NCBI RefSeq assembly: GCF_000950575.1
Contig: NZ_CP011005.1
Coordinates: 1,550,001 to 1,614,000 of the forward strand
DNA from: Psychromicrobium lacuslunae
Lineage (GTDB): Bacteria > Actinomycetota > Actinomycetes > Actinomycetales > Micrococcaceae
Length of the DNA stretch: 64,000 nt
Direction: 5' to 3'
In this document: positions 6,940 to 11,084 of the stretch, piece by piece
Position numbering within the stretch: position 1 is the first letter of the stretch
How the letters are laid out: every line of letters starts with the position of its first letter
Notes under the pieces: model-generated
What the model saw: the letters and a program-made list of their open reading frames with translations, nothing else
The model's database searches: none
Told to the model about the DNA's origin: nothing
Translations under genes and position numbers: made by a program

Positions 6940-6945
6940 TAGAAT
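6940..6945 (+). promoter_or_regulatory. -10 of the flavin electron-transfer operon
   Basis: TAGAAT at 6940-6945 with a weak TTCACC sixteen bases upstream. A start about seven bases downstream gives a leader of roughly 20 bases ending in the perfect AGGAGG at 6961-6966 before the ATG at 6971. Confidence 0.45.
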
Positions 6946-6970
6946 GACAGCCACGCCAATAGGAGGATTA

Positions 6971-7438
6971 ATGAAAATCACCCATCGCAAATCACTGTTC
7001 GTCTCGGCCGCCGGAATCGCCCTGATCGGGGGCGTCGCCGGCTGCGCACCGGCAGCAACCCAAAGTGCGCCGTCAACCCCCGCAAGCAGCAGTGATCAGA
7101 GTTCCTCCTCAGCGACCACTAGCAGCAGTTCCAGCAGCAGTGGTTACAAAGATGGCAGCTACAGTGCGGATGGCAACTACACCTCCCCCAATGGCCAAGA
7201 GACCATCGGCGTCAAACTGACCTTGAGCTCCGGGGTGGTGAGCGAGCTGGAGCTCACTCCGCATCCCTCCAACCCCAATACGCAGAAATTCCAGGGCGAA
7301 TTCATCTCCGGCATCAATGCCCTCGTGGTCGGCAAGAAAATCGATGAACTGAATGTCTCGAAGGTCTCCGGCTCCTCGCTGACCAGCGGCGGGTTCAACC
7401 AGGCTATTGAAGAAATCAAAAAGGAAGCATCCAGCTAA
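6971..7438 (+). CDS. FMN-binding-domain lipoprotein (predicted covalently flavinylated)
   Basis: 155-residue exported lipoprotein. The signal peptide ends in the lipobox GVAGC (Cys25). A Ser-rich linker (about 31-57) follows, then an FMN_bind domain (about 60-150) closing with SGSSLTSGGF, the acceptor motif in which a Thr (here probably Thr138) receives FMN through a phosphoester bond. In characterised relatives ApbE makes that bond, and apbE is the next gene. Expected role: extracytosolic one- or two-electron carrier tethered to the membrane. The start chosen is the ATG at 6971 with AGGAGG five bases upstream; an in-frame upstream start would add residues before the signal peptide and has no such site. 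Confidence 0.9.
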   Translation: MKITHRKSLFVSAAGIALIGGVAGCAPAATQSAPSTPASSSDQSSSSATTSSSSSSSGYKDGSYSADGNYTSPNGQETIGVKLTLSSGVVSELELTPHPSNPNTQKFQGEFISGINALVVGKKIDELNVSKVSGSSLTSGGFNQAIEEIKKEASS

Positions 7439-7440
7439 TC

Positions 7441-8358
7441 GTGAATAACGCGGCGGAAGAGGTGGCTGCTCAGGCGCAGTATCGTTTTGAAGCGATTGGC
7501 ACGCATTGGCAAATTGATACCGCAGAAGAACTGAGCCCGACGGTAAGGCAGGAGCTTGGCGCCCTGATCGAGCGCTACGATCAAGCCTTCTCTCGATTCC
7601 GCGGCGATTCCCTGGTCTCTCAAGCTGCCCGAGAACCGGGGCGCTATCAGCTTCCTCCGCCAGCTGAGCAGCTGGCAGAGTTTTACCGCAAGCTGTACGA
7701 GTTGACCGACGGGGCGATGACCCCACTGGTTGGCGACTCGCTCAGCCATCTGGGCTATGACGCCAGTTATAGCCTGCGAGCCGGCGACGGATTTCTGCCC
7801 CCACCCAGTTGGCAGGCCGCCATCGAGTGGCAAGGTACGCAGCTACACACCAAACTGCCGGTGGCTCTGGACCTCGGTGCAGCAGGCAAGGGGCAGCTGG
7901 TGGACCTGTTAGCCGAATTACTCACCGAGCACGGGGTGATGAATTTCGTAATTGACGCCAGCGGCGATATGTTCACCTCCCTGTCTAGCCCACTCAGCAT
8001 TGCGCTGGAGCATCCCTACGATGCCAGCTCGGCGATCGGCGTCGTGCAGCTCGGTGGGCGCAATACGAACTACCGAGCAATCTGCGCCTCCGCCAGCAAT
8101 CGACGGAACTGGGGCGATGGTTTACATCATGTGCTAGATGGCGGTACCGGCCAACCAGTGCAGACTGTGGTTGCCAGCTGGGTCTTAGCCGCCGATGCCA
8201 TGCATGCGGACGGCCTGGCTACAGCTTTGTTCTTCACCGACCATTCGGTGCTGCAGCAGGACTTTGATTTTGCCAGTGTGCGGCTGTTTTCTGATGGGCG
8301 AGCAGAAGTGTCAGCCAACTTTGACGGCGAACTATTTTTCAGGAGTGATCAGCAATGA
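7441..8358 (+). CDS. apbE: FAD:protein FMN transferase, ApbE family
   Basis: 305 residues. ApbE enzymes split FAD and attach FMN to Thr/Ser of target proteins. Visible family motifs are RYDQAFSRFRGDSLVSQAAR near the N terminus, LDLGAAGKGQLVDLL (flavin-binding glycine segment), VIDASGD, HHVLDGGTGQP and the late metal-site region VLAADAMHADGLATALFF. No signal peptide is seen, so it may act in the cytoplasm, as some actinobacterial ApbEs do; this needs testing because its likely target is exported. The start is a GTG two bases after the upstream stop, and the stop overlaps the next ATG. The preceding FMN-binding lipoprotein is the obvious substrate. Confidence 0.93.
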   Translation: MNNAAEEVAAQAQYRFEAIGTHWQIDTAEELSPTVRQELGALIERYDQAFSRFRGDSLVSQAAREPGRYQLPPPAEQLAEFYRKLYELTDGAMTPLVGDSLSHLGYDASYSLRAGDGFLPPPSWQAAIEWQGTQLHTKLPVALDLGAAGKGQLVDLLAELLTEHGVMNFVIDASGDMFTSLSSPLSIALEHPYDASSAIGVVQLGGRNTNYRAICASASNRRNWGDGLHHVLDGGTGQPVQTVVASWVLAADAMHADGLATALFFTDHSVLQQDFDFASVRLFSDGRAEVSANFDGELFFRSDQQ

Positions 8359-9863
8359 GAGCCTGGCTTGATGGCTTACTTGGCCGTTTCACCATGTATC
8401 GACTGGTACTGGTAGTACTGGGCGTATTGGCGCTCTATTCGATAATCCTCGACCTCTTGGGCTGGCTGACCTTCGGACTCCCCGCGATCTTCGCCAGCCT
8501 GCTTATCTCTTTACTGGTCACCACGCTAGTGAGCTGGCTTTTAGGTCTAGTGTTCCGGGTGAAGGTGCAACTGGAATCGAGTTTAATCAGCGGTCTGTTG
8601 ATTTACTTCCTGTTTTGGCCGAGCCTGCAGGCCGGCGAACTGGCCGGTATTGCCTTGGCAGCGGCGACAGCCTCCGCATCGAAGTTCCTGTTGGCCTGGC
8701 GGGGCCGACACATTTTTAATCCCGCAGCAATCGGAGCGTTCCTGGTCTCCCTCACCGGCTTGAATATTGCTACCTGGTGGACGGCAACTCCGGCCATGCT
8801 CTGGCTCCTGGTTCCTGCTGCAGCACTGGTGCTCTATCGCAGTTCCAAACTGATCTTCGCTGCTATTTTCATTGTTACTGCCGCCACCATCATCATCGTT
8901 CGACTGCTCAGTAATGGCCTGGCGCTCGGCGCAGCGCTCAGCCAGCCCTTTGCCTCGTTGCCGGTGCTGTTTTTTGTCGGATTCATGCTCTCCGAGCCGC
9001 TTACCTTGCCGCCGAGACGTTATCAGCAGTGGTTGTTGGCTGGGCTGGTCGCGGTGCTGTTTTCCGTACCGTTCCAGCTCGGGCCGGTCTTCTCGACCCC
9101 TGAGTTGGCTTTGTTAATCGGGAATCTGCTGGCCTTCACGGTTGGCCAACGCGGCGGCCTACGGCTGAGTTTCCAGGGTGCCCGGCAGCTCACTCCGACC
9201 AGCATGGAATATAGGTTTAGCGCCGCTAGACCGGTTCGCTTCGCCGCCGGACAGTACATGGAGCTCTCCTTGCCGCACCGCAAACCGGACTGGCGCGGCA
9301 GCCGACGGGTCTTCAGCCTGACTACTGATCCGCGCCAGGGCGCTCAGCTGGCCTTCGGACTACGTTTAGCAGAGCCCTCCAGCAGTTTTAAGCGAGAGCT
9401 GAACAGCTTGAAAGCCGGGGCTGTTATTTCGGCCACCGGAGTCTGGGGAGATTTCGTCCTGCCTGCTGGTCGCGCTCCGCTGCTGCTGATGGCGGCCGGC
9501 GTTGGGATCACCCCATTCCTGAGTCAGCTAAGGCATTTGCAGCACAGCGCTGCTGAACATCGGGACGTGGTCCTGCTTTATGTGATCAGCTCACTTGATG
9601 AGTTCGGCTACCGTGAGGAACTTCTCAAGCTAACTGCTGCTGAAGGTATTCGGTTGCTGATCAGTGCCCCGGAAGACCCTGGCGTGGGCGAGTATCTCAG
9701 CACCGGTTATCCTAGTGCCGAGCAACTCAAGACCGCGGTACCAGACATTTCCGCCCGTCGCAGCTATGCTTCAGGCTCCCCCACTTTTGTCGCCCACGCA
9801 CGTAGCATCGGTCACCATGCTGGCGCTCGCAAGGTGCATACCGACAGCTTCTTGGGTTACTAG
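8355..9863 (+). CDS. NqrB/RnfD-like membrane domain fused to ferredoxin-NAD(P)H reductase domain
   Basis: 502 residues. Residues 1 to about 270 hold eight to ten hydrophobic helices of NqrB/RnfD type, including the conserved GRHIFNPAAIG. From about 275 a ferredoxin-reductase module follows: AGQYMELSL, the FAD-binding RRVFSLTT (RxFS), the pyridine-nucleotide loop AAGVGITPF, and a C-terminal SGSPTFVAHAR...HTDSFLGY. No iron-sulfur cysteine cluster is visible. Read together, cytosolic NAD(P)H would reduce FAD in the reductase domain, electrons would cross through the membrane domain, and the FMN lipoprotein would receive them outside. The ATG overlaps the apbE stop by four bases, so the three genes are one operon. 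The terminal acceptor is unknown. Confidence 0.85.
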   Translation: MRAWLDGLLGRFTMYRLVLVVLGVLALYSIILDLLGWLTFGLPAIFASLLISLLVTTLVSWLLGLVFRVKVQLESSLISGLLIYFLFWPSLQAGELAGIALAAATASASKFLLAWRGRHIFNPAAIGAFLVSLTGLNIATWWTATPAMLWLLVPAAALVLYRSSKLIFAAIFIVTAATIIIVRLLSNGLALGAALSQPFASLPVLFFVGFMLSEPLTLPPRRYQQWLLAGLVAVLFSVPFQLGPVFSTPELALLIGNLLAFTVGQRGGLRLSFQGARQLTPTSMEYRFSAARPVRFAAGQYMELSLPHRKPDWRGSRRVFSLTTDPRQGAQLAFGLRLAEPSSSFKRELNSLKAGAVISATGVWGDFVLPAGRAPLLLMAAGVGITPFLSQLRHLQHSAAEHRDVVLLYVISSLDEFGYREELLKLTAAEGIRLLISAPEDPGVGEYLSTGYPSAEQLKTAVPDISARRSYASGSPTFVAHARSIGHHAGARKVHTDSFLGY

Positions 9864-9930: not shown

Positions 9931-10003
9931 GCCCTCGTAGCTCAGGGGATAGAGCGGTTGCCTCCGGAGCAACAGGCCGTAGGTTCGAATCCTATCGAGG
10001 GCA
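9931..10003 (+). tRNA. tRNA-Arg (anticodon CCG)
   Basis: Folds by eye: acceptor GCCCTCG/CGAGGGC, D stem GCTC/GAGC, anticodon stem GTTGC/GCAAC around loop CTCCGGA (anticodon CCG), T arm GTAGG-TTCGAAT-CCTAT, discriminator A. CCA is not encoded. Reads CGG codons. Confidence 0.97.
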
Positions 10004-10063
10004 CTTTGCTTCATTCTTATTATCGCTGCGTCGTGGCCCGCCGACAGGTAACTTCACTCCTAC

Positions 10064-10094
10064 TTGACTCATCCCCTAAGGGACAGGTTTATCG
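10064..10094 (+). promoter_or_regulatory. MerR-type promoter/operator of the merR-peroxiredoxin gene
   Basis: -35 TTGACT (10064-10069) and -10 TTATCG (10089-10094) are separated by 19 bases, the overlong spacer typical of MerR-activated promoters. TTTATC one base earlier gives 18. The spacer contains the dyad TCCC-CTAA-GGGA (10072-10083). The position fits autoregulation by the MerR domain encoded immediately downstream. Confidence 0.55.
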
Positions 10095-10115
10095 TCATTT
10101 CTGGAGGTGATGAGC

Positions 10116-11084
10116 GTGTTAGCCAAGGAACTAGCCAGACAATGTGGCACCAGCGTCAAAGCGCTACGGTACTTCGAACAGTGCGGTCTACTGAAGCCAT
10201 CCCGGCTCAGCAATGGCTATCGTGACTACTCGGCAGCTGACGCTTTTATCGTGGAGAAAATCCTCGAACTACGCGGCCTGGGTTTTTCCGTTGAGGGCAC
10301 CAAACCATTTATCGATTGTTTGCGGCTCGGCCATGAACAAGGCGACGAATGCGCCGACTCGTTGATCGCCTACCGCACCGAGATAAGCAGAATCGAGGCA
10401 ACCGTTGCGCAGCTGAATCAGTATCGCGAGCTGCTCCAACAGCGCCTATACACCGCTGCGGCCCGCGGCTTTCCGAACTCAGAGACAATGGAGGTATCCC
10501 AGATGCCCAGCACAAGCTACGAAAAACTCCCGGAGAACCTTCCGGTTCCGCAAGATGACGGCCTCGCCGATCACCTGCCGGGCCTGTCCCTCCCGGAGTT
10601 GAACCTGCCGAGCACTTCCGGTGAAACCATTGATTTGGCAGCAATAACCGGCCGCTGGGTGCTTTTTATTTACCCCTCCACCGGGGTGCCGGGCGTTGAT
10701 ATGCCCGAGGGTTGGGACAACATTCCGGGTGCGCGTGGCTGCACTCCCGAAGCCTGTGGCTTCCGTGACAATATCGATTCGCTGCGTGCTGCCGGAGCCG
10801 AAGCTATCTATGGTCTTTCCGGCCAGGGCCTGAATTATCAGCAAGAACTAGCCAAGCGTTTGCATCTGCCCTACCCCTTGCTGAGCGATCCTCAGACCGA
10901 GCTCGCTGAGGCATTGCAGCTACCTCGCTTCGACATTGCCGGTCAAAGTTTTTACCAACGATTGACTTTGATCATTAACTACGGCGTGATTGAACACGCT
11001 TTTTACCCCATCTTCCCGCCGGATCAACACGCCAATCAGGTGCACAGTTGGCTTCGTGAAAATCCGATGCCAGGCGCTAGCTAG
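10116..11084 (+). CDS. MerR-family regulator fused to PrxQ-like peroxiredoxin
   Basis: 322 residues. Residues 1 to about 110 are a MerR DNA-binding domain plus dimer helix (KELARQCGTSVKALRYFEQC, NGYRDYS). A linker to about 128 leads into a complete AhpC/TSA-like domain: LPENLPVPQDDGLADHLPG, FIYPSTGVPG, and GARGCTPEACGFRD with the peroxidatic Cys209 and a second Cys five residues on (Cys214), the PrxQ/BCP arrangement. Stand-alone relatives begin at the LPENLP segment. The start chosen is the GTG at 10116, eight bases after GGAGG; the ATG at 10110 is too close to that site. Inside the gene GGAGG at 10490-10494 precedes an in-frame ATG at 10503, which could yield a free peroxiredoxin of 193 residues. 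Peroxide-responsive autoregulation is inference. Confidence 0.88.
   Translation: MLAKELARQCGTSVKALRYFEQCGLLKPSRLSNGYRDYSAADAFIVEKILELRGLGFSVEGTKPFIDCLRLGHEQGDECADSLIAYRTEISRIEATVAQLNQYRELLQQRLYTAAARGFPNSETMEVSQMPSTSYEKLPENLPVPQDDGLADHLPGLSLPELNLPSTSGETIDLAAITGRWVLFIYPSTGVPGVDMPEGWDNIPGARGCTPEACGFRDNIDSLRAAGAEAIYGLSGQGLNYQQELAKRLHLPYPLLSDPQTELAEALQLPRFDIAGQSFYQRLTLIINYGVIEHAFYPIFPPDQHANQVHSWLRENPMPGAS
10490..10505 (+). promoter_or_regulatory. Internal ribosome-binding site and in-frame ATG for a free peroxiredoxin
   Basis: GGAGG (10490-10494), eight bases, then ATG (10503-10505), in frame with the merR-prx gene and exactly at the MerR/peroxiredoxin junction. Good spacing suggests independent translation of the enzyme domain. 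Confidence 0.5.

Follow-up and report, generated by a model that had tools for sequence, protein, structure and literature searches.

A MerR-peroxiredoxin-like fusion gene with a conserved operator and a conserved internal start is a candidate autoregulated redox gene of actinobacteria

INTRODUCTION

Can one gene that joins a MerR-type DNA-binding domain to a peroxiredoxin-like domain serve as a sensor that acts on its own promoter and, from a second start at the domain junction, also supply the enzyme-like part as a free protein? The question is raised by a locus of Psychromicrobium lacuslunae (Micrococcaceae) that lies within the 64,000-nucleotide stretch of DNA analyzed here, referred to as the window (NZ_CP011005.1, positions 1,550,001 to 1,614,000 of the forward strand), and all window coordinates below are counted from its first nucleotide. 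A previous sequence-only reading had described the locus as a MerR regulator fused to a complete peroxiredoxin, with its own MerR-type promoter and an internal ribosome site, and could tie it to no characterized system. In this study, we compared the gene, its promoter, and its domain junction with those of relatives.

RESULTS

One frame encodes a MerR domain and a PrxQ-like domain

The frame is open on the + strand from GTG 10116 to the TAG that ends at 11084 (stop codon 11082-11084) and encodes 322 amino acids, with the following main parts.

10116..11084, + strand: merR-prx fusion gene, long product of 322 aa with a GTG start (from the frame, the start being backed by the alignment of relatives)
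10116..10472, + strand: MerR helix-turn-helix (HTH) and long dimerization-type helix, residues 1-119 (from Pfam MerR_1 and the AlphaFold2 model)
10503..11084, + strand: predicted free PrxQ-like product, which is also the C-terminal domain of the long product (from Pfam AhpC-TSA/Redoxin and the PrxQ/Bcp fold found by Foldseek)

In Pfam, the N-terminal half matches MerR_1 (PF13411) at residues 4-61 (5.6e-12) and PF00376 (7.7e-10), both above the curated cut-offs, and the C-terminal half of the window protein matches AhpC-TSA, with its best stretch at residues 207-294 (2e-13), as well as Redoxin at residues 156-302 (6.1e-11). An AlphaFold2 model of the 322-aa protein (mean pLDDT 85.8 overall) contains both the HTH and the peroxiredoxin (Prx) domain, predicts the long helix typical of the MerR family at residues 80-117, and has low confidence (pLDDT below 50) at linker residues 119-137. 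The top structural matches of the Prx domain in Foldseek are PrxQ/Bcp proteins, e.g., 5enu and 5epf, which places it in the thioredoxin-like fold of peroxiredoxins. The window protein falls far below every curated cut-off of the NCBIfam equivalogs PrxQ, ZntR, CueR, MerR, NmlR, and SoxR, the PrxQ model NF053650 scoring 50.3 against a cut-off of 260, and no TipAS domain is among the Pfam matches listed for this protein and five relatives.

The fusion gene is preceded by a tRNA-Arg gene at 9931-10004. Upstream of both, positions 6944-9863 hold a row of three genes, encoding an FMN-binding-like small protein (its Pfam match lies below its cut-off), an ApbE family protein (7441-8358), and a membrane/NAD-binding reductase (8355-9863). 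A reductase frame homologous to the latter is also found upstream of the fusion in a locus from the same genus (L002).

The fusion recurs in many families

Our set comprises 43 distinct in-frame fusion genes, counting that of the window; they are mostly actinobacterial, come from many families, and include 36 genes at less than 85% identity. Within the family of the window genome, the distribution is patchy: at an E limit of 1e-40, profile A1, an alignment of five fusions, matched over its full length 16 times in 395 genomes. At 1e-50, the order sample (396 genomes) added three full-length fusions from other families. In the phylum sample, 40 of 396 genomes matched (1e-50), with one fusion besides the window's own, and most of the other matches consisted of the Prx half only. 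Contigs of named genomes gave no match when searched with the single window protein; with profile A1 they gave at least 80 loci, and 25 in-frame fusions were among the matches listed, from Streptomyces, Streptacidiphilus, Nonomuraea, Actinomadura, Mycolicibacterium/Mycobacterium, Leucobacter, Leifsonia, Kocuria, and Corynebacterium and from two metagenome-assembled genomes (MAGs) labelled Chloroflexi and Bacillota. Viral contigs gave no match. Further fusions lie on Streptomyces plasmids, where they are annotated as redoxin or MerR regulator; in the six plasmid records that cover most of the query, the protein is named either "redoxin family protein" or "MerR family transcriptional regulator." The plasmid fusions L197 and L198, which stand outside the 43-gene set, both have the operator and the internal Shine-Dalgarno (SD) sequence and start described below.

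Before counting, we dropped loci that represented the same gene or an identical protein (L116, L117, L120, and L126, among others; L152 is the gene of L049), L126, from genome G236 of the window's family, being identical in protein to L055 from Kocuria coralli. Loci in which MerR and Prx were incomplete or not in one frame were dropped as well (L069, L059, L130, L133, and L134). In L069, L133, and L134, the MerR and Prx parts or pieces lie in different frames, which points to breaks of the frame or to errors of sequencing. Among the findings named at the outset as speaking against the fusion was its loss from every relative; many relatives retain it, and with 43 distinct in-frame genes the fusion stands as a real unit.

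Members of this Prx subfamily that lack MerR are found in deep actinobacterial lineages, in haloarchaea, in a Chloroflexi and a Marinobacter, and on Agrobacterium, Synechocystis, and haloarchaeal plasmids. A tree built from 103 Prx domains groups all 45 fusion rows in one clade (97/96) together with 11 rows that have no in-frame MerR, nine of which are nested among the fusions and two of which (L069 and L148) are basal; MerR remains are present in L059 and L069, which look like broken fusions. On this tree, which has 11 label changes (at least 8 of them forced) and bootstraps that are not fully settled, the simplest reading would be one fusion event that was followed by repeated losses of MerR.

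Two further observations concern the standalone proteins. Among those of the phylum sample (L153-L180, mostly of family label f34), 24 of 28 have a same-strand open reading frame (ORF) with the C terminus NLGVGGHN..., in many of these sequences just upstream of prx; we take this C terminus to be ketoacyl-synthase-like, and it is possible that prx is linked to fatty-acid synthesis or lipid chemistry in those lineages. On a Microvirga ossetica plasmid (L199, 2465-3322), a gene with the annotation glutaredoxin 3 contains a member of the Prx subfamily, which suggests a Prx-Grx fusion.

The cysteines are invariant and the peroxiredoxin motif is altered

Four cysteine codons of the fusion gene are of interest for its putative chemistry.

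10317..10319, + strand: Cys68 codon (kept across the fusion set; invariant in 24 of 24 alignment rows)
10350..10352, + strand: Cys79 codon, just N-terminal of the long helix (kept across the fusion set)
10740..10742, + strand: Cys209 codon, putative peroxidatic cysteine, CP (invariant in the alignments of relatives; aligned with the PrxQ active site)
10755..10757, + strand: Cys214 codon, putative resolving cysteine of the C-x4-C (invariant in the alignments of relatives)

Cys209 and Cys214 have the C-x4-C spacing and are invariant in the 24-row fusion alignment, as is Arg282, which aligns with a Prx strand. The PxxxTxxC(P) motif, as defined for peroxiredoxins in the cited excerpt (PMC9426444), is not preserved: Ala-Arg-Gly stands before CP, with Ala at CP-3 in all 45 fusion rows (Ala-Arg-Gly was found by motif match in 44, and the 45th, L129, was read directly). 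All 58 standalone rows likewise have Ala-(Arg/Lys)-Gly before CP (47 by motif match and 11 read directly), and the loop ahead of CP is longer than in the aligned solved relatives. Since the canonical motif is altered at CP-3, peroxidase activity and its substrate are uncertain, and we refer to the C-terminal domain as PrxQ-like, as the motif does not place it among the peroxidases. The frame, both domains, and the C-x4-C had thus been read correctly, and it is the word "complete" for the peroxiredoxin that has to be qualified. In the haloarchaeal standalone proteins L066 and L067, Arg replaces the resolving cysteine (Cys214), and these look like 1-Cys forms.

All 43 fusion rows scored have Cys at position 68 and at position 79. 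The pair also occurs in 5 of 30 standalone MerR proteins from the loci examined (fusion loci L069, L197, and L198 excluded), and we therefore rejected it as a mark unique to the fusion; a thiol relay through Cys68/Cys79 is conceivable and would not be specific to a Prx partner. The alignment and the model give no conserved Cys or His in the variable, low-confidence linker after the long helix.

The promoter has a MerR-type 20-bp spacer, and exact matches to the putative operator lie only at the fusion gene in the genomes searched

The elements upstream of the gene are as follows.

10064..10069, + strand: -35 element TTGACT of the gene's own promoter (TTGAN in 42 of 43 fusion genes)
10070..10089, + strand: 20-bp MerR-type spacer with a weak dyad, putative operator (this length in all 42 genes that have the element)
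10090..10095, + strand: -10 element TATCGT (TANNNT), from the promoter comparison
10103..10107, + strand: SD sequence GGAGG of the long product, 8 nt 5' of GTG 10116 (a 7-nt SD match was scored for L001, which is the same gene)

TTGAN-N20-TANNNT is found 47-52 nt upstream of the start in 42 of the 43 fusion genes, the window's included, the exception being L058 from the Bacillota MAG, and the uniform spacer was not forced, because the comparison permitted 18-22 bp. Spacers of 19/20 bp and activation by DNA distortion are described as characteristic of MerR-family promoters in the cited excerpt (PMC7722741). The promoter is thus of the MerR type, as had been proposed, with a spacer of 20 bp instead of the 19 bp first given, the -10 hexamer having been placed one base early. 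By eye, the operator consensus is roughly TTGACCTTGCCCCnAGGGGCAAGGTTTAgcgT. Over 35 non-redundant operators, the inverted-repeat score has a mean of 7.57 versus 4.97 +/- 0.98 in shuffles, so the dyad claimed for this promoter is clear for the family; it is convincing at that level only, as the 6 paired positions of the window copy are equalled or exceeded by 26.5% of pooled shuffles and are at chance level, and we regard the operator as putative.

An exact 32-nt operator pattern matched in 16 of 23 genomes, once each and always just upstream of the fusion gene, and its reversed control gave one match in these genomes. The pattern was drawn by eye from the fusion promoters, and matches at most of those genes are thus expected; the informative parts of the search are the absence of other sites and the matches in three genomes (G487, G688, and G543) outside the promoter set from which it was drawn. 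No exact match was found in G065, G102, G129, and G696, which are genomes without a full-length in-frame fusion, or within 600 nt upstream of the standalone relatives examined, and the pattern missed the fusion genes of G232, G252, and G933, which have slightly different elements. With one mismatch allowed, 18 of the 28 matches in 30 genomes lay at fusion genes and the other 10 did not; the reversed control gave 39 in the same genomes, and we rejected a wider regulon on the basis of these 10 off-gene matches versus 39. The two extra one-mismatch sites of the window genome have no dyad by eye. Searches with the exact and the one-mismatch patterns found no other convincing operator site in the fusion genomes searched, which, together with the matches at the fusion gene, fits autoregulation. 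One of the 10 off-gene matches, in G011, a genome without the fusion, is a good 20-bp-spacer dyad (L231, G011:C2:431622-431653) near another standalone MerR gene.

A conserved neighbor as the target of the regulator was rejected, since in an all-against-all comparison, shallow in that most loci had only about 1.5 kb of flank, no family of flanking frames was found at more than 5 of the 43 loci. With no neighbor family more widespread than this, the gene itself is the best candidate target, and we infer from the sequences that the fusion protein acts on the promoter of its own gene, most likely to activate it. Downstream of the fusion, a gene of one family that looks DapA-like by eye is found in L004, L044, L046, L119, and L128; on the Streptomyces plasmid of L197, the gene that follows the fusion bears the annotation dihydrodipicolinate synthase family.

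A start codon with a Shine-Dalgarno sequence is kept at the domain junction

At the junction, the window gene has the following elements.

10490..10494, + strand: internal SD sequence GGAGG (SD kept across fusion genes)
10503..10505, + strand: internal in-frame ATG (Met130), N terminus of the predicted 193-aa free product (junction start in 38 of 43 fusion genes)

The GGAGG at 10490-10494 is followed after 8 nt by the in-frame ATG at 10503-10505, exactly as in the sequence-only reading, which had held that free peroxiredoxin could be made from this site and had proposed conservation of the start as a check. The comparison supports the possibility of a free peroxiredoxin-like protein: 38 of the 43 fusion genes keep a start codon immediately ahead of the point where the conserved Prx residues begin (ATG in 26, GTG in 9, and TTG in 3), and the SD match of these junction starts is at least 4 nt in 34, at least 5 nt in 21, and at least 6 nt in 16. 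L004, L119, L125, and L128 have the start without an SD of at least 4 nt, and five fusions (L052, L056, L057, L058, and L129) are without a junction start, L058 being scored in this way with the anchor motif absent at its junction. From the end of the MerR profile to the Prx anchor there are 11 to 48 codons, always in frame, and the linker is poorly aligned. The internal start thus appears to be common among fusions and not universal.

Among the non-redundant genes, 31 of 36 have a junction start, versus 19.4% of other 5-codon windows in the same genes, and a start with an SD of at least 5 nt is found in 18 of 36, versus 0.63% of 10,531 control windows, while 13 of the 31 junction starts have an SD of at least 6 nt, versus 0.45% of 442 control in-frame starts. 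Codon choice points the same way, with Val at the junction encoded by GTG in 9 of 9 cases (40% elsewhere in these genes) and Leu by TTG in 3 of 3 (7% elsewhere), several of these rows being close relatives. In 500 synonymous-codon shuffles, the observed 18 genes with an SD of at least 5 nt compare with a mean of 10.7 and a maximum of 17, and the observed 13 with at least 6 nt compare with a mean of 5.9 and a maximum of 10. The amino acids account for more than half of the SD signal (mean 10.7 of 18), and the remainder lies beyond every shuffle. In most of the standalone relatives examined, as judged by eye, a start codon lies at most a few codons away from where the fusions have their internal start, the exceptions being L154, which has no start near this position, and L070, which starts further upstream.

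DISCUSSION

Our results lead us to believe that the gene is probably, if by no means certainly, an autoregulated, tipA-like redox gene with an enzyme as its effector, whose long and free products make it oxidant switched and self-limiting. The long product, composed of the MerR and PrxQ-like parts, would sit as a dimer on the 20-bp-spacer operator of its own promoter, and an oxidant would be sensed by oxidation of the C-terminal thiol domain at Cys209/Cys214, perhaps relayed as a disulfide to Cys68/Cys79 of the MerR part. The oxidized long product would then distort the promoter and switch on its only evident target, its own gene. On the same mRNA, the second ribosome site at the junction would yield the free 193-aa Prx-like enzyme without the DNA-binding part, so that both products would be present in the cell, and the free enzyme may remove the oxidant or compete for it, turning the unit off once the stress ends. 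We put forward more tentatively, as a possibility somewhat short of even, that the gene is a one-gene redox homeostat in which one promoter, one mRNA, and two starts give a DNA-bound sensor and a signal-removing free enzyme that sets the threshold, with a relay from the Prx cysteines to Cys68/Cys79; such a TipA-type circuit would be a new kind of redox-sensing MerR regulator that is spread over actinobacteria, with some plasmid copies.

It is also possible, although on the doubtful side, that the circuit is the same and the signal is not H2O2 but another electrophile or oxidant, such as an organic or lipid hydroperoxide, HOCl, or polysulfide, or that the domain only senses through its thiols and catalyzes little. 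The Ala-Arg-Gly in place of the canonical motif and a pre-CP loop longer than in the solved relatives aligned would suit this, and the ORF that we take to be ketoacyl-synthase-like at 24 of the 28 standalone loci L153-L180 is a hint of lipid chemistry, while the C-x4-C, the Arg282 aligned with the Prx strand, and the PrxQ fold have all been kept and speak against it. We think it unlikely that only the fused protein matters and that the internal start is left over from an ancestral merR-prx operon, in which prx had its own SD, that became weak or silent after loss of the stop codon. Such a history would be in line with the standalone relatives of similar N terminus, the 5 of 43 fusions without a junction start, and the part of the SD signal that is due to amino acids, but the start codon and SD persist across a wide set despite a linker that varies in length and sequence, the SD matches exceed those of all 500 synonymous shuffles, and Val and Leu at the junction use start-competent codons only. 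Moreover, the 11 rows without in-frame MerR in the fusion clade, L059 and L069 with their look of broken fusions among them, fit a start that was already working.

We give little credence to the view that the MerR half is a metal or drug sensor and that the Prx-like half is tethered to it for other reasons. The best NCBIfam regulator scores of the MerR half are indeed those of the metal-responsive ZntR, CueR, and MerR, and Cys79 presumably may sit where MerR and ZntR bind metal; however, these scores are far under the curated cut-offs, and the usual C-terminal metal loop was not seen in the linker after the long helix, which is variable and has no conserved Cys or His. Sequencing or assembly error that joined two genes has next to no probability and was rejected: nothing in its favor was found for the window, and although MerR and Prx pieces do lie in different frames in some relatives (L069, L133, and L134), 42 other distinct in-frame fusion genes come from other assemblies. 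As the gene, its promoter, and its internal start recur in relatives, they represent more than chance or a sequencing artefact.

While no characterized system had been found that the design could be tied to, and the effector domain does set it apart, the design itself has a precedent in TipA. For TipA of Streptomyces lividans (TipAL/TipAS), the cited excerpts describe one MerR-family gene with two in-frame translation products and autoregulation, the two products being demonstrated for tipA and assumed by the authors for albA (PMC7762955, PMC6078987, PMC2893106). The fusion resembles the TipA class (TipA, SkgA, and AlbA), as portrayed in these excerpts, in its N-terminal MerR domain and its C-terminal effector, and it would also share with it the two in-frame products and the autoregulation from its own promoter that we predict. 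The TipA effector is an all-helical TipAS-type drug-binding domain, whereas that of the fusion is a thiol-dependent PrxQ-like domain; by analogy, the fusion may work like TipA, and its lack of a TipAS domain places it outside the TipA class.

With SoxR, NmlR, CueR, ZntR, and MerR, the fusion has in common the HTH fold, the long helix, and a promoter with a 19/20-bp spacer, and it differs from them in carrying a whole enzyme-type domain and in scoring below every curated cut-off. SoxR has cysteines after the long helix and the metal regulators have metal loops there, whereas the fusion has no conserved Cys at this place. In yeast, the Orp1-Yap1 pair is a thiol-peroxidase relay to a separate regulator, and we propose a similar use of a peroxidase-type thiol protein as the sensor for a transcription factor, with the difference that sensor, DNA-binding part, and free enzyme would here be one gene. 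PrxQ/BCP proteins, such as BcpB of Mycobacterium tuberculosis (5epf) and a Burkholderia protein (5enu), share with the fusion the fold (TM-score 0.75-0.81 by target length), the C-x4-C, and GC-x4-C-x-FRD; in contrast to them, the fusion has a longer pre-CP loop, Ala-Arg-Gly for the end of PxxxTxxC, an attached MerR part, and 26-28% identity.

No description of a MerR-peroxiredoxin fusion was among the titles and abstract openings listed from the open-licence literature, which leaves absence in print unproven. The parts and the two-product MerR design are known already, and the redox-enzyme version with a conserved operator and start appears to be undescribed. The unit is easily overlooked, because plasmid records name the protein as a redoxin or as a MerR regulator.

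If the proposed circuit is correct, the MerR family would gain a redox sensor based on an enzyme, and the TipA principle of a long sensor and a short effector made by internal initiation would be a more general route to compact feedback loops. The unit would be portable and directly testable, with operator, promoter, sensor, and effector in about 1 kb, and it would provide a clear case in which to ask how the threshold of a redox response depends on the balance between a thiol sensor and a free copy that competes with it.
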